A DNA stretch of 64,000 bases from Candidatus Saccharimonadota bacterium. GTDB taxonomy: Bacteria > Patescibacteriota > Saccharimonadia > Saccharimonadales > Saccharimonadaceae. How positions within the stretch are numbered: position 1 is the stretch's first letter; the number at the start of each line of letters is the position of its first letter. The stretch lies in the NCBI GenBank assembly GCA_030528625.1, contig JAUMYN010000001.1:1-64000 (forward strand), written 5' to 3'. Made by a program: the position numbers and the translations under genes. The notes below the pieces were generated by a model. The model was not told the DNA's origin. It did no database searches and saw nothing but the letters and a program-made list of their open reading frames with translations. Positions 41,419 to 49,695 of the stretch are shown piece by piece.

Positions 41419-42522
41419 ATGACCAAGCGCGATTATTATGAAGTGTTGGGCGTGTCGAAAAGCGCCTCTGAGGATGAGATTAAGAAGGCGTTTCGCAAGG
41501 CGGCGGTGAAGTATCATCCAGATAAAGAGGGCGGCGATGAGACTAAATTCAAAGAGGTGAACGAAGCCTACGAAGTGCTGAAGGACAAGCAAAAACGCCA
41601 GCGCTACGACCAATTCGGCCATGCTGGCGTCGGCGGTGGCGCGGGCGGCTTCAGTGGCAATCCATTTGAAGGGTTTGGCGGGTTTGGCGGTCAGGGCGTA
41701 CATTTTGACTTCGGCGACGGCGGCCTGGGCGATATTTTCAGCCAATTTTTTGGCGGTGGCGCAGGTGCTCAGCGCGGACCGCGGCGCGGCCGTGATCTTG
41801 AGACCAGCGTAACGCTTTCTTTTGAGGAAGCGGTGTTTGGCGCGGAAAAGACTATCAGCCTGACGCTGGACGATGAGTGCGAACATTGCCATGGCAGTGG
41901 CGTTGAACCAGGTCACAGCCTGAAAACGTGCGACACCTGCCAGGGCGCTGGCCAGCAAACCCGAGTGATGAATTCGATTTTTGGCCAGATTCAGCAGGCG
42001 GTTACTTGCGAAACTTGTCATGGCCGCGGCAAGGTGCCGGAGCAGGATTGTTCAGTGTGTCGTGGTCGCGGCACTACCCGCCAGGCGCACGAAATGACAG
42101 TGAAAATCCCGGCCGGCATTGATGATGGCGCGACGATTCGGCTACGCGAGCGCGGCGAGGCGGTGCAGGGCGGCGCGAAGGGGGATCTGTACGTCCATAT
42201 CCGGGTGAAAGCGCACAAAAAATTTACTCGTGAGGGCAATATTATCCTGTCGGAAGAGCATATTTCCATGGTGGACGCGGCGCTGGGCACAGAGATTGAC
42301 GTCGAGACGGTGGACGGCACGGTGCGTATGAAGATTCCAGCTGGCACCCAGTCGGGGACGGATTTCAAGCTATCGGGCCACGGCGTGCCGAGCCTCCGCA
42401 GCGACCAACGCGGCCCGCACATCGTCGGTATTATCGTTGATACGCCAACCAAGCTCAGTAAGAAACAGCGGGAGCTGCTGGAGCAGTTTAAGGGCGCGAA
42501 GAAGCGCGGGTTGTTTTCGTAG
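41419..42522 (+). CDS. dnaJ: Chaperone DnaJ (Hsp40)
   Basis: 367 residues: J domain with YHPDKEGG, a Gly/Phe-rich region ([15 protein letters not shown]), four zinc-finger repeats ([32 protein letters not shown]) and the C-terminal substrate domain. It stimulates DnaK. The ribosome site AAGGAGATC is inside the end of the NYN gene, so both are translated from one mRNA. Confidence 0.97.
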
Positions 42523-42571: not shown

Positions 42572-42600
42572 TTGACATTAACACATTTTTAATGTATAAT
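42572..42600 (+). promoter_or_regulatory. Perfect sigma70 promoter of the amidoligase cluster
   Basis: TTGACA (42572-42577), exactly 17 bases, TATAAT (42595-42600). The ATG at 42610 is 9 bases after the -10 box, so the leader has about 3 bases. Confidence 0.9.
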
Positions 42601-42609
42601 CACATTGTG

Positions 42610-43992
42610 ATGAATCAGCAAACAGAAATATTACGTAGTAAATCTTCGGCACATGATTGCATACTGAATGAGGCTATTGGGTTGACACCGAAGGTGACTG
42701 GTTATTTACTCCCTGAGAATATCGCAGAGGTGCGGCAGGGTATCAAAGATGGTAGTATGACTGCACCTGTCTGTCCTGGGCTGAGCAAAGCTGATTTTGC
42801 CGCTCCGCTTAGCAAACTGGAGCGGCTTGCCAGTAGTGTCAAGGACAAGAGTGATCGCCTTTCTGTATATTTTTGTGGGGCTATTGGCGAAAATGCCCTG
42901 AAATATCTCCTTCTTCAGGCAATGCAAGAGCGCCTGGAGGAGACAGATGTTGCGCGACGGAACGAATTGGCGGCGGTAATTAATGATTTAAATGAGAAGA
43001 TCTATGGATCACCGGACGAAGAGGTGTATCATTCACTTGTGTCCGACATCAAGCAGTTAGAGTTAGGCGGGGCTAATGATCACGGCCGACGTTTATACGA
43101 GGAACTTGTTCAGCAGTTGCCTTCGATTGAAGCTGAGGTGAGTCGGTTTCGTCCAAGTCAGGAGACGATTGAATGGATGAATGGCGTGGTTAATGGACTC
43201 TATGGTGGACTATTGAGACAGGTCCCAGAACGGGACGAGCCGTTTACCCCGCAAGAGATAGCCGAAGTATTCGAGAACATCATACGTCAAGAGTTTGGCG
43301 AAGCGGCGGACGACTGGTCTGTCGTGGTACGACCAGCCGGCTCTATTGAAGTCGACCGTATTACAAAAACCATAGTCATTCCAGAAGATCGCCCCCCAGT
43401 GTCTTACCAGAAATTATGTGAGCTCGTAGTGCACGAAATCGGTGTGCATATGCTGCGTGGTGTGATGGGATATGAACTAAATTCACCACTTGCTGCGCTT
43501 GGCTTTGCTTCTTATCGTGACCTCGAAGAGGGTACTGGTAAGGTTGCCGAACAGGCTCTGGGGAAACAGTATCAGGAGGCGGGCATAGCATACTATTTGA
43601 TCGCTTCCATGATGCGATTTGATCAAAAGAATAGTCATGAGGTGTATGAAGCATTATGGAGATACCATGCACTCAAGAAAGACGTAAAGGTAACAGATGA
43701 ATCAATCACAAAGGCGCAAGATCTTGCCGCGCGACAGGTAGCTCGTATGACCCAGGGGACGGGAGATATCCCGCTCATGATGGATTTGGCTTATTTCAAT
43801 GGAGCATACAATGCCTGGAAGTATTTTGAGGAAAATAGAGGAGACGACACGGCGGTCGCTTTATTCTTTATGGGTCGTGGCGACCCGACAGACCCTGGGC
43901 AACGAGCGGTCATGATGGAGTTCTATAATCCACAGGATGTTCGTCAGGTTGTCGAAGAAGACTTTACGTGGGCGAATAAAAAAGAGCAGTAG
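42610..43992 (+). CDS. DUF1704/MATCAP-like zinc metallopeptidase
   Basis: 460 residues from the ATG at 42610; an upstream ATG at 42592 lies before the -10 box and is discarded. The zinc motif is VHEIGVHMLRGVMGYE near 285, followed after ~30 residues by SYRDLEEGTGKVAEQ, which fits the HExxxH ... EEG pattern of the DUF1704 family (the eukaryotic members remove C-terminal tyrosine from tubulin). Bacterial members occur beside ATP-grasp ligases, as here. The role would be trimming or releasing residues added by the ligases encoded downstream. First gene of the operon. Confidence 0.8.
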   Translation: MNQQTEILRSKSSAHDCILNEAIGLTPKVTGYLLPENIAEVRQGIKDGSMTAPVCPGLSKADFAAPLSKLERLASSVKDKSDRLSVYFCGAIGENALKYLLLQAMQERLEETDVARRNELAAVINDLNEKIYGSPDEEVYHSLVSDIKQLELGGANDHGRRLYEELVQQLPSIEAEVSRFRPSQETIEWMNGVVNGLYGGLLRQVPERDEPFTPQEIAEVFENIIRQEFGEAADDWSVVVRPAGSIEVDRITKTIVIPEDRPPVSYQKLCELVVHEIGVHMLRGVMGYELNSPLAALGFASYRDLEEGTGKVAEQALGKQYQEAGIAYYLIASMMRFDQKNSHEVYEALWRYHALKKDVKVTDESITKAQDLAARQVARMTQGTGDIPLMMDLAYFNGAYNAWKYFEENRGDDTAVALFFMGRGDPTDPGQRAVMMEFYNPQDVRQVVEEDFTWANKKEQ

Positions 43993-44000
43993 GTGATTAG

Positions 44001-45251
44001 ATGAATTCGCTATATGCAGTAACAGGAACAAAAGGTAAGACGACAATCGTGCGCCTGCTCGACCATGCTTTTCAGCAACAGGGGCGCCAGGTGCTGCGCG
44101 TTGATACATCGGGTGTGTACCTTAATGGCGTTTTGCAGGTGAGCGACCAAAAGAGCCGTCAGAAATGGGGATTTGTGGCTACAAATGCACCAGGGCGTTT
44201 TCTATATCTCTTAGACGATGCTGACGGTGTCGGTATTTTGGAATGTACATTGTTTTGTGCAAATCGTGGCGTAGGTCTCGGCTATAAGTATCATAATATT
44301 GGCATCTTTACGAATGTCTTTGAGGATCACCTGGGTTGCATTCGGGGGCTGGAGACGAAGCAGGATATTGCCAATAAAAAGAGTCTTGTATTTGAGAAAA
44401 TCGCCCCCGGCGGCTCGGCAATTTATAACATGGATGATCCTCTGGTGGTGGACCAATTGCAAAAAGTGCCATCGCACAACGTACGACGTATGGGCGTAAC
44501 ACTGGATGACACAGCGGGCGATCGGCGACGCTGTGTTGTGACGGATTCTGAAGTGTTGCTGTATGACAATGAACTAACGTGTCGCTATTCGTTGAGCGAC
44601 TTTCAGTGGCTTGCAGCGGCACATCGTCCGTCGCGGTATGCAATCGGCTTTACTGTAGCGGCATTATATGAAGGGCTTGACACGGCACGATTTGATGAAG
44701 CTATCCAGGCGCTGAAAACCTATACCTTCGACGAAGATGGCGGACGAATGGTGCGCATTGATACTGAGGGTCCGGTGGTGCTATTAGACTTTGCCCACGA
44801 GAAATACTCACTGCACGAGCTTGCTATGTACGCACGGTCACTCGTATCGTCAGCAGGCAGGGTAATCGGTGTGGTGCGTCTGGCACCAAGCCGTACTAAA
44901 GAACTTATTGAGGACACGGCGCAATTTATCGCCAAAGACTTTGATACATTTATCGTCTATGATAAGGTTGATGGATATTGGCGCCAGCCTGCTCTCGTGA
45001 AAGGTTTTACTGATAAATACGAAGAGGTTGGTAAGGTAGCAGGTATTTTGGGCGATGCCTTGCGAGCGCAATGCGCAGACGCGCTTGTCGTACTGCGCGA
45101 GGATCAGGCAATTCGGGCGGCCGTAAAAAAAGCTGGACCTGATGATGCTATAGTCTATATCGTGAATGATGACGGTCATCGCTCAAGAAAGTTTCTTTTG
45201 CAGGCATTGCAGGGTTATCAAAACACGAAAGAAAAGGGAATGGTAGAATAA
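44001..45251 (+). CDS. Mur-ligase-family enzyme similar to the C-terminal half of cyanophycin synthetase
   Basis: 416 residues. P-loop VTGTKGKTTIVRLLDHAF, then DTSGVYLNGVLQ, GILECTLFCANRGVG and TNVFEDHLG, which follow the order and spacing of the Mur-ligase domain of CphA. The C-terminal ligase domain (VVLLDFAHEKYSLHELAMYA, VVRLAPSRT) is complete. The family joins amino acids to a carboxylate using ATP. Unlike CphA the ATP-grasp domain is not fused; a fitting one is encoded at 47113. It is 8 bases after the DUF1704 gene. Confidence 0.85.
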   Translation: MNSLYAVTGTKGKTTIVRLLDHAFQQQGRQVLRVDTSGVYLNGVLQVSDQKSRQKWGFVATNAPGRFLYLLDDADGVGILECTLFCANRGVGLGYKYHNIGIFTNVFEDHLGCIRGLETKQDIANKKSLVFEKIAPGGSAIYNMDDPLVVDQLQKVPSHNVRRMGVTLDDTAGDRRRCVVTDSEVLLYDNELTCRYSLSDFQWLAAAHRPSRYAIGFTVAALYEGLDTARFDEAIQALKTYTFDEDGGRMVRIDTEGPVVLLDFAHEKYSLHELAMYARSLVSSAGRVIGVVRLAPSRTKELIEDTAQFIAKDFDTFIVYDKVDGYWRQPALVKGFTDKYEEVGKVAGILGDALRAQCADALVVLREDQAIRAAVKKAGPDDAIVYIVNDDGHRSRKFLLQALQGYQNTKEKGMVE

Positions 45252-45256
45252 AAGAC

Positions 45257-45469
45257 ATGAAATTGCGATTATTGGTATGGACATACATCCAGATGGCAAG
45301 GAGACGGCGGCGCAGATTGCTGACTCGCTTCGCCCATGGGTTCGACAGCAGCTACGAGGTGAAATTCATTAATTTTGACGACATTTTGTTTGATATGGCG
45401 CCCCAAAAAGTTGACGTCTTTGATAACAGGAAGGGAGTCTCATTGCGGGATTGCTCGGTAGTGCGGTGA
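45257..45469 (+). pseudogene. Broken N-terminus of another RimK-like ATP-grasp gene
   Basis: The sequence changes frame at least twice. In one frame it reads IAIIGMDIHPDGKETAAQIA and DSLRPWVRQQL, in the next YEVKFINFDDILFD followed by KVDVFDNRKGVSLRDCSVV. Joined, these are the pre-ATP-grasp domain of a RimK-type ligase; the catalytic part is absent. The remnant starts 5 bases after the Mur ligase stop, in operon position, so an ancestral cluster had one more ligase. Confidence 0.6.
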
Positions 45470-45523
45470 ACAACCTTCAAGCAGCTAAGGCGGTAACTAG
45501 GCTATCCGAGGGTAGACTAAAGA

Positions 45524-46018
45524 CTACTTCGCAACAGTCAAGCCGATAATAGCAACCGACGCGAGTAACCCGGTCCATACGGTAATGGCGGTATAAGCGA
45601 CTTTTCTCTTTGTGATATCAGTGAGCTTATGGTTATATCGATACATCAGAAAAACGCCCAGCGGAGCCAAGAAAAAGATCATGGCGTAGCCAAAATACTC
45701 ATTTTGCCAGAATTTGCTCGCCACTATTTTTTCAATAGCCTTTTCACGGCGCCCTTTCGCCTTAAGGCGCTTTAATTCCTTTTTCTGTCTAGCCAAGTCC
45801 TTGCGAGGATTGGGAGTCCATGAATTACCGCAGTTATTGCATATTGCCATAGTCTTATTTTTTATTCTTGGGGTTTTGATCAACAGCGACACGAGCCATA
45901 CGATAAAAATTATAATAAGCAGCGCCAACCGCACTAGTAGTGTCAAGAAACTACCATATTTATGTTCCTGTACTATCTGCACTTGCACATTGTCACTACC
46001 ACACCGTGGACAGATCAT
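45524..46018 (-). CDS. Zinc-ribbon membrane protein
   Basis: 164 residues. MICPRCGSDN and ICNNCGNSW form a zinc ribbon whose halves are separated by a membrane helix (about residues 25-47). A basic coiled-coil stretch (RQKKELKRLKAKGRREKAIE) and two more helices follow. The pattern is like many bacterial zinc-ribbon membrane proteins of unknown role. It is inserted on the opposite strand within the ligase cluster, which splits the cluster into two transcripts. Confidence 0.7.
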   Translation of the reverse strand: MICPRCGSDNVQVQIVQEHKYGSFLTLLVRLALLIIIFIVWLVSLLIKTPRIKNKTMAICNNCGNSWTPNPRKDLARQKKELKRLKAKGRREKAIEKIVASKFWQNEYFGYAMIFFLAPLGVFLMYRYNHKLTDITKRKVAYTAITVWTGLLASVAIIGLTVAK

Positions 46019-46139
46019 AATATTCTATCTCCTATTGCTTATTGATATAGAGGCTAAATAAGATTGCACTTGATAAGAATATGATATTATATGTATTGAA
46101 TACCAAAATAGCGTGGTCGTTACTGGTAACGAGTATACT

Positions 46140-47120
46140 ATGAACATTGCCATATGTCTTAGTCTATCTTTTGATAAAAAAGGTCCCTATAAATACTTAG
46201 GTGATCAGTATAGGCAATTTCGTGAGGCACTGTCTTGTTTAGCGGCAGAAGTGTTGCAAAAAACTGGCAAGGGCCTGCATTTCGTACAAATCGACGACCT
46301 GCAAGCTGACGGCTCGTTTGGTTTATGCTATACGCTGCGAGACACAATTGCCGATTGCCTACGCTTTGAAGTGGCGCATGAGTGCTGCATGCCAGATGTG
46401 GTAATTAATCGTAGAAAAGATGAGCTATATAATCACCCATATTTTGCAAATGCCTCTTGGCTTGCCTATAATGCCAAAGAGATAGCAGAACTGGGCAATA
46501 AAGCTGTTTCGTTGAGAGAATTTTCGCACTATATGCCCAAGGGCACTTGCTTCAATAGCGATGTTGACATTGAAAAGATTAAGGACGTGATTAATCAGAA
46601 TCCTAAAATAGCGAACTGGGTTGTAAAGCCGTTACGGGAGAATGGTGGCCGGGGAATTTTCTTACTGAAGCGTGATAGTGCTGTCGAGACTATAGTAGGA
46701 TATGGCGAGCCGGTTTTATTACAGGAGTTTTGCGAAACAAGATCGGTGTCAAAACTTCAGGTTACTGGCAGGCATGATATAAGAGCGTATGTTATAGATG
46801 GGGAGCCACTTCTTCTAGCTATTCGTCAGCCGAAAGAAGGTGGATTTCTAGCTAATACGGCAGCCGGTGGGTCTATTCGATTTCTTGACATAGCGCTGCT
46901 GCCCGTCGAGGCTAGGAATATGCTGGACGATGTTGTATCGGATATTAATACTATCAAGAATAGATATTTCGTTAGCGTAGACATATTTTATGCTGATGGT
47001 GGATGGCGGCTGATAGAAATTAATGATCAGCCAGGGTTGCCAGCTCCCTATCAAACACCGCTAGCAAGGATTATTATACAAAAATTGATAGAATCATTGG
47101 AGGGGGTACGGAATGATTGA
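46140..47120 (+). CDS. ATP-grasp ligase (glutathione-synthetase-like)
   Basis: 326 residues starting MNIAICLSLSFDKKGPYKYL. The ATP-grasp is clear: NWVVKPLRENGGRGIFLLK, DIRAYVIDGEPLL, and the metal-binding end SVDIFYADGGWRLIEINDQPG. The EINDQPG form resembles glutathione synthetase rather than RimK (EVNASPG). The N-terminal ~120 residues form a pre-ATP-grasp domain with Cys-rich HECCMPDVVIN. It overlaps the next ligase gene by 8 bases. It probably joins an amino acid to a carboxylate of a peptide or protein; substrate unknown. Confidence 0.83.
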   Translation: MNIAICLSLSFDKKGPYKYLGDQYRQFREALSCLAAEVLQKTGKGLHFVQIDDLQADGSFGLCYTLRDTIADCLRFEVAHECCMPDVVINRRKDELYNHPYFANASWLAYNAKEIAELGNKAVSLREFSHYMPKGTCFNSDVDIEKIKDVINQNPKIANWVVKPLRENGGRGIFLLKRDSAVETIVGYGEPVLLQEFCETRSVSKLQVTGRHDIRAYVIDGEPLLLAIRQPKEGGFLANTAAGGSIRFLDIALLPVEARNMLDDVVSDINTIKNRYFVSVDIFYADGGWRLIEINDQPGLPAPYQTPLARIIIQKLIESLEGVRND

Positions 47121-48126
47121 TACGTCGAAGTTTATGATAACCACTAGGTTACTTGTGGAGGAGGCGATTCGAAAGGGGTATAGTATATCAACAATGGTGA
47201 GTCGTCCATCTGCGAAGTCGTATGCGATTCGTTGCGAGAAGGGCGGCAAGGTATTTTACTTCAAGGGTTTATGTACTGCGCTATCGCCGTCGTACGCCGT
47301 ATTTATGGCAAATGATAAGGTGCTAACGCGAGATGTGCTGGGCTGCCATGGGGTACCTATGCCTGCCACGACGGTCGTCTCCTTGAGTGACTCGGCATAT
47401 GAAGCGACAGATAAGATCGTATCTTTCTTGCGGGAGCACGGCCGCTTAGTTGTGAAACCCGCAATGGCAAACCATGGTCGTGGCATTACGGTGGATGTGC
47501 GTGATGAGGACGATCTGCGGAAGGCGATTGACATGGCCTATCGCGAAGATAATAGCCCTGACATCGTTGTGCAGCAAATGGTTTTTGGTCGTGAGTATCG
47601 GTTTCTCGTTTTGAATGGTGAAGTATTGGCAGTAGCCTACCGGCGCCCAGCGTTTGTAGCTGGCAATGGTAAGTCAACTATTCGAGAACTAATTGAGGAG
47701 AAAAATCTTGACCCGCGTCGTGGAGAGGGACATAGTGCGGCATTGACAAAAATTAATATAGAGCATGTCGTGAACAGCAACCCAAGGGGGTTTTTGGACG
47801 ATATTCCCGATGCCGGTGTTGAAGTTGATGTTTTGCAGACTTCTAATTTGAGCCGCGGCGGTGAGTCGATCGATGTTACGGACCAGGTATCGATCGGCCT
47901 CAAGGATATCGCTATTCGTGCTGCGCAAGCGTGTTCACTCGGTATTGCTGGTGTGGATATTATTACGGAAGATATAACAACGGGCGATGATAGCAATAGT
48001 TATGTATTGGAGGTCAACGCATCACCCGGTATACGAATGCATCAGTTTCCTTCGGTCGGCACTCCTCGGGATGTTGCGAGAGAGCTTTTCGCTGCCATTG
48101 AAAAGACAGCTCAGCCGCTTGAATGA
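47113..48126 (+). CDS. ATP-grasp ligase similar to the N-terminal half of cyanophycin synthetase
   Basis: 337 residues with RLVVKPAMANHGRGITVDV, GREYRFLVLNGEVLAVAYRR, GNGKSTIRELIEEKNLDPRR followed by GEGHSAALTKI, and the metal end YVLEVNASPGIRMH. The STIRELIE...DPRRGEGH segment is characteristic of CphA/GshAB-type ATP-grasp domains. Together with the Mur ligase at 44001 it makes the two catalytic halves of a cyanophycin-synthetase-like enzyme on separate chains. Overlap with 46140 shows tight coupling. Confidence 0.85.
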   Translation: MIDTSKFMITTRLLVEEAIRKGYSISTMVSRPSAKSYAIRCEKGGKVFYFKGLCTALSPSYAVFMANDKVLTRDVLGCHGVPMPATTVVSLSDSAYEATDKIVSFLREHGRLVVKPAMANHGRGITVDVRDEDDLRKAIDMAYREDNSPDIVVQQMVFGREYRFLVLNGEVLAVAYRRPAFVAGNGKSTIRELIEEKNLDPRRGEGHSAALTKINIEHVVNSNPRGFLDDIPDAGVEVDVLQTSNLSRGGESIDVTDQVSIGLKDIAIRAAQACSLGIAGVDIITEDITTGDDSNSYVLEVNASPGIRMHQFPSVGTPRDVARELFAAIEKTAQPLE

Positions 48127-48267
48127 TACCAGTAAGCAGAATTGCCCTAGGAACTTCAGGGGGATTGAGTCTATACGGCCGACAGCTGGTTGAGTAGCAG
48201 TGGGTGAAGTTGCCATCGCTGAGATATTTTGATTTTAGCTATGAAATATGTTATAATTAAAACGAGT

Positions 48268-48777
48268 ATGCATAAAACTAGCAAGACTATTATTGGCCGG
48301 AATGTGAAGGTTGACTTTGGTCGGCGGGCGGTTGGCGTACCGGCAAAAGTTGACACGGGAGCTGATGGCTCATCGGTGTGGGCGAGTAATATTCGTGTGG
48401 ATAAGGACGGTGTGCTGAAGTTCTGCTTATTTGGTCAAGGGTCGCCGTACTATAATGGCAAAGTGTTTAAGCGAACTGGCTATTCTGTGGCGATGGTGCG
48501 AAGCGCTTCGGGGCATCAGATTATGAAATTTCGAACCCATTTCACCATACGCCTCGGGGGGCGCCGCATGAAAGTACTGTTTGGGCTGTCGGATCGATCA
48601 ACTCACGAATACCCGGTGTTGATTGGGCGGCGAACGTTGGCAGGTAAGTTTTTGGTTGATGTGGCACAGTCTGAGGTGCCACTGCGTAAGCCAACCAGCA
48701 GACGGTATAATCAAGAGTTTAAAAAGGATCCGTACGCTTTCTATAAAAAATATCACCAGAAAGGAGTAGATAGCTAA
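48268..48777 (+). CDS. rimB: RimB-like retropepsin-type protease (ATP-dependent zinc protease family)
   Basis: 169 residues from the ATG at 48268, behind TTGATT-17-TATAAT (48252-48257). KVDTGADGSSVWASN is the retropepsin-like DTGA motif of the family annotated as ATP-dependent zinc protease (RimB/RloA3), and HEYPVLIGRRTLAGKFLVDV is the second conserved block. In Pseudomonas RimB removes glutamates added by RimK to ribosomal protein S6. It is directly followed by rimK with no gap, matching a rimBK operon. Confidence 0.82.
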   Translation: MHKTSKTIIGRNVKVDFGRRAVGVPAKVDTGADGSSVWASNIRVDKDGVLKFCLFGQGSPYYNGKVFKRTGYSVAMVRSASGHQIMKFRTHFTIRLGGRRMKVLFGLSDRSTHEYPVLIGRRTLAGKFLVDVAQSEVPLRKPTSRRYNQEFKKDPYAFYKKYHQKGVDS

Positions 48778-49695
48778 ATGAATATCGCAATTCTCTCAAA
48801 CGGAAATATCAACTACTCCACCCTGCGGCTAAAGGAAGAGGCGGAGGCGCGCGGTCACATCGTGAAGGTGATTAAATATAAAAACTGCTACGTCGCGATT
48901 GATGAAAAGAATCCGAAAGTGATGTATCGCGGTAAGGAGCTGGCTGGGTTTGATGTGATTATTCCGCGTATCGCCAGCCACATGACACGCTATGGCACGG
49001 CGGTGCTGCGTCAGCTGGAAATGGCAAACCCAGATGCGTTATTTCTCAATCGCTCTATTGCTATCAACCGGTCACGTGACAAATTGCGTTCAACTCAGCT
49101 ACTGGCGCGGGCGGGCGTGGCTATTCCAAAGACCGTCTTTTCGCGCAACGAAACCGACATTGAAGCGCTGCTGGAGGAAATTGGCGGCACGCCAGCGATT
49201 ATTAAGCTGGCGCGCGGCACGCACGGCAATGGTGTGGTATTAGCAGAAACGAAAAAGGCGGCAAAATCGGTGCTGCAGGCATTTTACCTTACCAATGCCG
49301 ATGGCACGAACGTGCTGCTTCAGGAGTTTATTAAGGAATCGGCTGGCACCGACATTCGTGCTTTTGTGGTCGGGTCGCAGGTGGTAGCCAGCATGAAACG
49401 CCAGAGCTTGGATGATGATTTTCGTTCCAATTTACACAAGGGCGGCGAGGGGACGGCTGTCAAATTGACTGACGAAGAGCGCAAGATGTGTATCAAGGCG
49501 GCTAAGGCCATGGGCTTGACAGTGGCGGGCGTGGACTTTATGCGTTCGGATCGAGGCGCGCTGGTGCTGGAGGTCAATGCTAGTCCAGGATTTGGTATCG
49601 AAAAGGTAACGGGCCGTGATGTTGCTAGCAAAATTATCGACTACGTTGAGCGCAATGCCAAGCGCCAGCTGAAAAAAGACCGCATTGGTGCCTAG
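48778..49695 (+). CDS. rimK: RimK-like alpha-L-glutamate ligase
   Basis: 305 residues, normal for RimK. MNIAILSNGNINYSTLRLKE starts the N-terminal domain; the ATP-grasp shows PAIIKLARGTHGNGVVLAE, GTDIRAFVVGSQVVASMKRQ, NLHKGGEG and the metal end ALVLEVNASPGFGIEK. RimK adds glutamates to the C-terminus of ribosomal protein S6. The ribosome site AAAGGAG sits inside rimB. Other alpha-glutamate ligations are possible since two more ATP-grasp genes lie upstream. Confidence 0.9.
   Translation: MNIAILSNGNINYSTLRLKEEAEARGHIVKVIKYKNCYVAIDEKNPKVMYRGKELAGFDVIIPRIASHMTRYGTAVLRQLEMANPDALFLNRSIAINRSRDKLRSTQLLARAGVAIPKTVFSRNETDIEALLEEIGGTPAIIKLARGTHGNGVVLAETKKAAKSVLQAFYLTNADGTNVLLQEFIKESAGTDIRAFVVGSQVVASMKRQSLDDDFRSNLHKGGEGTAVKLTDEERKMCIKAAKAMGLTVAGVDFMRSDRGALVLEVNASPGFGIEKVTGRDVASKIIDYVERNAKRQLKKDRIGA

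Follow-up and report, generated by a model that had tools for sequence, protein, structure and literature searches.

RimK adds glutamates to RpsF, and RimB both strips them from the polyglutamylated protein and stimulates RimK; RimB-RimK hybrids are also known (PMC11957791). TMCP1 and TMCP2 are tail carboxypeptidases of the HExxxH/EEG type, named from their processing and deglutamylation of tubulin tails; the two motifs bind metal in TMCP1/MATCAP, and residues of the tubulin tail are removed by TMCP enzymes (PMC10499314). The Rlo system of Pseudomonas combines a retropepsin (RloA), a membrane transglutaminase (RloB) and an ATP-grasp protein (RloC), and rlo mutants exhibit envelope phenotypes (PMC12239564). 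Cyanophycin synthetase (CphA1) carries an N-terminal domain, an ATP-grasp domain and a Mur ligase (M) domain in a single chain. Amidoligase gene neighbourhoods in which ATP-grasp proteins are linked with DUF1704-type peptidases were reportedly described by Iyer et al. in 2009. The locus presented here resembles the neighbourhoods said to have been described there in pairing an ATP-grasp with a DUF1704-type peptidase, and differs in being anchored on RimBK, in its variability, in its stand-alone Mur ligase and in the fusions found in other Patescibacteria. A search of the literature found no paper joining Saccharibacteria with either RimK or cyanophycin synthetase.

The window is a stretch of 64,000 nucleotides from a Candidatus Saccharimonadota bacterium whose genome amounts to 788 kb in six contigs. 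A sequence-only reading of this DNA had described, within 7 kb, a DUF1704 metallopeptidase, a Mur ligase, two ATP-grasp proteins with a broken third, and RimB-RimK. All of these genes were found on the + strand between 42572 and 49695 (Table 1). The run is interrupted by an antisense ORF of 164 residues (GC 0.43), which has zinc-ribbon cysteines and hydrophobic stretches. GC contents of the cassette genes ahead of RimK lie between 0.43 and 0.49, compared with 0.52-0.60 in the flanks, for which the DnaK, DnaJ, RimK, DUF192 and 161-aa genes were used. As in the RimK/RimB (RimABK) S6 polyglutamylation system, RimB adjoins RimK and the catalytic motifs are kept; unlike that system, the locus has additional ligases as well as a Mur ligase and a DUF1704 peptidase in the interval from dnaJ to rimB.

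Table 1. Features of the RimBK locus and its borders (positions are those of the window).
Feature	Position	Strand	Remarks
dnaJ	41419-42522		Upstream border of cassette
Perfect sigma-70-type promoter TTGACA-17-TATAAT	42572-42600	+	Ahead of first unit
DUF1704/MATCAP-family zinc metallopeptidase (HExxxH + EEG)	42610-43992	+	Likely start ATG 42610, not 42592
Stand-alone Mur ligase related to CphA M domain	44001-45251	+	TGTKGKTT, E81, K127, R249, H266 conserved
Frameshifted remnant, N-terminal part of third ATP-grasp (pseudogene)	45257-45470	+	Weak match, E=0.002
Zinc-ribbon ORF, antisense	45524-46018	-	Between ATP-grasp remnant and GRASP_A
GRASP_A, RimK/glutathione-synthetase-like ATP-grasp amidoligase	46140-47120	+	
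GRASP_C, CphA/GshAB-type ATP-grasp amidoligase	47113-48126	+	8-base overlap with GRASP_A
Promoter-like TTGATT-17-TATAAT, TG before -10 box	48229-48257	+	Ahead of RimB; consensus match only
RimB-like retropepsin (DTGA)	48268-48777	+	ATG 48268 proposed
RimK, alpha-L-glutamate ligase	48778-49695	+	
DUF192 gene	from 49741		Downstream of RimK

The proposed RimB-RimK pair was recovered as two adjacent genes. RimK is full length (E=1e-98; PF18030 E=4e-31, PF08443 E=2e-59) and scores 330.4 bits against the S6-ligase model NF007764, the cut-off of which is 331. RimB matches PF05618 (E=4e-10) with its DTGA motif kept, and yields 37.1 bits against the NCBIfam RimB model, short of the cut-off of 200, and 47.5 bits against RloA3. 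Two further points set the locus apart from RimABK: relatives fuse RimB to other ATP-grasps, and the S6 protein of the window's genome ends in VEGDA, without a terminal glutamate. Among 57 family genomes, nearly all have an acidic S6 tail, whether RimK is present or not, and tails ending in EE, DE or ED were found in 26 of 46 genomes with RimK and 4 of 11 without (p=0.32). In these genomes tail composition showed no association with the presence of RimK, and S6 is at most a candidate substrate.

The perfect promoter reported for the first unit is exact, where 0.21 sites with no more than one mismatch would be expected by chance. It overlaps the first ATG (42592) of the DUF1704 ORF; since the -10 box ends at 42600, this start is unusable from the promoter and translation is assigned to the ATG at 42610, approximately 9 nt past the box and nearly leaderless. 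The near-consensus site ahead of RimB agrees with the consensus at 10 of 12 positions and is overlapped by a longer RimB ORF beginning at 48229, in place of which the later ATG is proposed. At both strong promoter-like sites (42572-42610 and 48229-48268) the likely ATG stands about 9-11 bases past the -10 box. The arrangement suggests that the transcripts of the DUF1704 and RimB units may be nearly leaderless.

The DUF1704 protein of the window scores 23.4 bits against PF08014 (E=3.4e-5), and because this lies under the curated cut-off of 27 it was filed as a divergent relative with a presumed activity. PF08014 is matched by 21 of the 22 members of its alignment, in all of which H281, E282 and H286 (HExxxH) and E313 (EEG) are invariant. 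The best PDB match of its AlphaFold model (pLDDT 88) is microtubule-bound MATCAP (7z6s), a modest match (E=0.0095, probability 1.00, TM-score only 0.34/0.46); a phmmer search against PDB sequences returned no relative. On the strength of these relatives, the fold match and the invariant motifs, the metallopeptidase named in the sequence-only reading is retained as a divergent one. It shares both motifs and the fold match with MATCAP/TMCP (KIAA0895L) and the bacterial QEGLA/DUF1704 proteins, whereas, unlike MATCAP/TMCP, it is bacterial, very divergent in sequence and located inside a ligase cassette. Matches to PF08014 above the cut-off were obtained in 76 of 245 family genomes. At three loci (L032, L155 and L156) the position of DUF1704 in the cassette is occupied by U584, a protein of approximately 590 residues with an invariant HExxH, a downstream glutamate and no Pfam family, which is possibly an unnamed metallopeptidase. 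U584 was considered as a distant relative of DUF1704; since hhalign gave a probability of only 41% and an alignment missing the zinc motif, it is described simply as HExxH-bearing.

GRASP_A corresponds to the second, glutathione-synthetase-like ATP-grasp of the earlier reading (GSH-S_ATP/RimK, E=6e-9). Its invariant residues K163, E293 and N295 are read as ATP-grasp metal and nucleotide ligands, and its model finds structural matches in RimK (the closest), GshB and LysX/ArgX. The broken third ATP-grasp is indeed a frameshifted remnant, with about 70 residues and no catalytic core, and weakly resembles (E=0.002) the N-terminal portion of an ATP-grasp that is intact at L117. GRASP_C matches TIGR02068 (CphA) with E=2e-77, GshAB with E=3.5e-62 and N-acetylglutaminylglutamine (NAGGN) synthetase with E=3.5e-48, and aligns with the CphA1 and GshAB structures, EVNASPG motif included. 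The Mur ligase matches the C-terminal part only of TIGR02068 (E=2e-38) and bears the marks of its superfamily, namely the P-loop TGTxGKT, the metal/carbamate lysine and DH/R/H; in 12 sequences T8-T14 (P-loop TGTKGKT), E81, D109, H110, K127, R249, D263 and H266 are invariant. The protein begins at the P-loop and therefore has no N-terminal substrate domain. Catalytic motifs were thus kept in the DUF1704, Mur ligase and GRASP_A alignments.

The best family match of GRASP_C is CphA1, as is that of the Mur ligase, and the two had been taken for the halves of a split cyanophycin synthetase, a claim that found no support. Unlike CphA1, the window genes are separate, the N-terminal domain is absent and joint inheritance was not seen: both genes occur together in 3 of 245 genomes, against 2.9 expected. 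The Mur ligase shares 48% identity with the one found between RimB and RimK at L032, compared with only 24% with the M domain of a true CphA in another Patescibacterium (L187), and a search of the window's genome for cyanophycinase found none. Owing to this independent assortment, the two identities and the absence of cyanophycinase, the Mur ligase and GRASP_C are considered to have been joined within the cassette, where they probably met rather than derived from a single gene. Should the Mur ligase decorate a backbone that another ligase has made, RimK would be its more constant partner. The contig of the true CphA (L187:46-2721) encodes a complete cyanophycin synthetase of 891 residues, after which come an unknown ORF and another ATP-grasp.

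Each cassette gene was searched in 245 family genomes and 72 wide loci were compared. RimK occurs in 201 of these genomes, and most examined loci display a recurrent frame, DnaK-DnaJ-cassette-RimB-RimK-(DUF192)-161-aa protein. The cassette may hold DUF1704, GRASP_A, GRASP_B, GRASP_C, GRASP_D, the Mur ligase, a GNAT, further ATP-grasps (U428, U440 and U455, recognised by Pfam, and U354, recognised by eye), a 1017-residue membrane-type protein or U584. There are 31 gene combinations among the 63 loci with RimK, and on the RimK tree, a quick tree with many weak forks, DUF1704 undergoes no fewer than 15 changes of state against 23 presences. Seven loci of the window's genus carry differing sets of zero to four recognised accessory genes. 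The gene order nearest to that of the window, DnaJ-DUF1704-GRASP_A-GRASP_C-RimB-RimK without the Mur ligase, was found at L122 (genome G113), with identities of 61% for GRASP_A and 71% for GRASP_C. Loci L032-L043 and L122-L141 were selected for having a Mur ligase or GRASP_C, and only L151-L183 (33 loci) were taken by hand down the RimK ranking, among the matches listed; of these 33, an extra ligase is present in 13, a peptidase in 12 and both in 7, with no recognised accessory gene in 13. Low GC content, the many combinations and the turnover are read as the result of repeated exchange of cassettes between lineages at a fixed site.

In the window's genus, L145 and L146 have near-identical RimK proteins; one cassette holds a membrane protein of the 1017-aa type and the other is empty, and dnaJ is split in two at L146. 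In another family of Patescibacteria (L186:1477-4027) a Mur ligase adjoins an L-amino-acid-ligase-like ATP-grasp (U440). A single-protein scan of the genome contig collection gave no match, and a profile scan returned mostly ordinary Mur ligases plus the Saccharibacterial locus L243. Comparison of the cassette with PADLOC defence families yielded no match of note, and a defence system was rejected as a reading.

Of the 68 genomes in which both genes were placed, 37 have DUF1704 no more than 7 kb from RimK, approximately one being expected at random if kinship is ignored. The other 31, in which it was not found near RimK, come largely from g12 and g2, two genera with many sampled genomes; a few of these cases may be due to contig breaks. 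Of 13 genomes, 10 have the Mur ligase at the RimBK locus, and the three exceptions belong to one genus. GRASP_A and GRASP_C occur together in 9 genomes against 4.0 expected (p=0.007, kinship ignored); the Fisher tests of association treat genomes as independent. In eight loci (L123-L129 and L136) GRASP_C is fused to RimB. Among the best 30 DUF1704 loci beyond the family, 24 carry ATP-grasp-DUF1704 fusions of approximately 670-840 residues, all in other Patescibacteria (most in L284-L306, with L309, L310 and L312; split versions occur in L290 and L307). All 24 consist of ATPgrasp_ST with a C-terminal MATCAP/QEGLA domain, and HExxxH and the ATP-grasp residues are invariant. The three fusions tested match TIGR02291 in the ATP-grasp part, with E-values down to 5e-89, and TIGR02421 (QEGLA) in the peptidase part. 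A profile search revealed a RimB-like stretch between the two domains of some fusions, which may be inactive and without cutting, because it has no invariant aspartate motif.

These fusions provide strong evidence that ligase and peptidase would act in one pathway. The functional link of DUF1704 with ATP-grasp ligases and RimB/RimK implied by the sequence-only reading is upheld by the proximity to RimK and by both kinds of fusion, and the same observations support, as an idea, its suggestion that residues are attached to a protein or peptide and taken off again. Co-occurrence in relatives was seen for DUF1704, the ATP-grasps and RimB/RimK, but not for the pair of Mur ligase and GRASP_C.

Taken together, these data tip the balance slightly towards a locus composed of a RimBK core for the modification of protein tails, accompanied by exchangeable ligases that write tails of amino acids and a carboxypeptidase that trims them. 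RimK would add glutamates to the C terminus of a protein and RimB would cut them off, as has been shown for homologues. GRASP_A, GRASP_C and the Mur ligase would each attach more amino acids to the growing tail at the expense of ATP; alternatively, the Mur ligase might attach them to the side-chain carboxylates of the chain that RimK has made, in the manner of the CphA M domain on its own backbone. The DUF1704 zinc peptidase would trim C-terminal residues, as MATCAP/TMCP enzymes do on tubulin. Lineages would swap sets of ligases and peptidases in the form of low-GC cassettes placed between dnaJ and rimB, and with a constant RimBK core the chemistry of the tail would consequently vary.

The ligases might instead produce a small peptide or an osmolyte resembling glutathione or NAGGN, which the peptidase recycles, and no protein tag. 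GRASP_C is nearly as close to GshAB and NAGGN synthetase as to CphA, and a GNAT accompanies DUF1704 in L124, L131, L132, L139 and L163; this explanation is nonetheless unlikely, since the coupling to RimB, which in its known form cuts polyglutamate as an endopeptidase, persists and includes fusions, and a MATCAP-family peptidase is coupled and fused as well. Modification of the envelope, with the ligases acting on peptidoglycan or surface peptides as in Rlo, is judged quite unlikely. The window shares a retropepsin and an ATP-grasp with that system, its RimB scores better with RloA3 than with RimB, rlo mutants have the envelope phenotypes mentioned above, and the ATP-grasp parts of the fusions in other Patescibacteria match TIGR02291 (alpha-L-glutamate ligase-like), which is presumably an RloC-like family. 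Unlike Rlo, however, the cassette has no RloB-like membrane partner and does contain DUF1704, and its RimB directly precedes a RimK that comes close to the cut-off of the S6-ligase model.

An insertion hotspot alone, at which unrelated ligase genes arrive and vanish without joint function, would agree with the low GC content, the remnant ATP-grasp, the high turnover and the different cassettes beside the near-identical RimK proteins of L145 and L146, but it is very improbable, as what the cassettes carry is almost always drawn from a small set of types (amide ligases and peptidases), these activities are found as fusions elsewhere and defence families gave no notable match. Least credible of all is a CphA-like storage polymer made by the Mur ligase with GRASP_C and degraded by DUF1704, to which the shared best NCBIfam match and the real CphA of L187 lend some colour, but against which stand the chance-level co-occurrence, a Mur ligase far from the real M domain and close to those beside RimK, and the absence of both cyanophycinase and the CphA N-terminal domain.

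Tail polyglutamylation in bacteria has so far been known mainly as an on-off system of RimK and RimB. If the locus is a RimBK core with exchangeable writers and trimmers of tails, the ligase set would be exchanged among close relatives, and a peptidase of the tubulin-trimming family would be coupled or fused to it, a bacterial parallel to the tubulin code. In a more specific form, which is put forward tentatively and with some doubt, Saccharibacteria would possess a diversifying version of such a code, in which a RimK-made glutamate tail would be branched or capped with different amino acids by exchangeable ATP-grasp and Mur ligases, the latter decorating the RimK backbone as the CphA M domain does, and erased by RimB together with the MATCAP-family carboxypeptidase. 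Host-associated Saccharibacteria have been cultured. If true, the proposed tail modification would give DUF1704, stand-alone Mur ligases and several unnamed ATP-grasps a function that can be tested.
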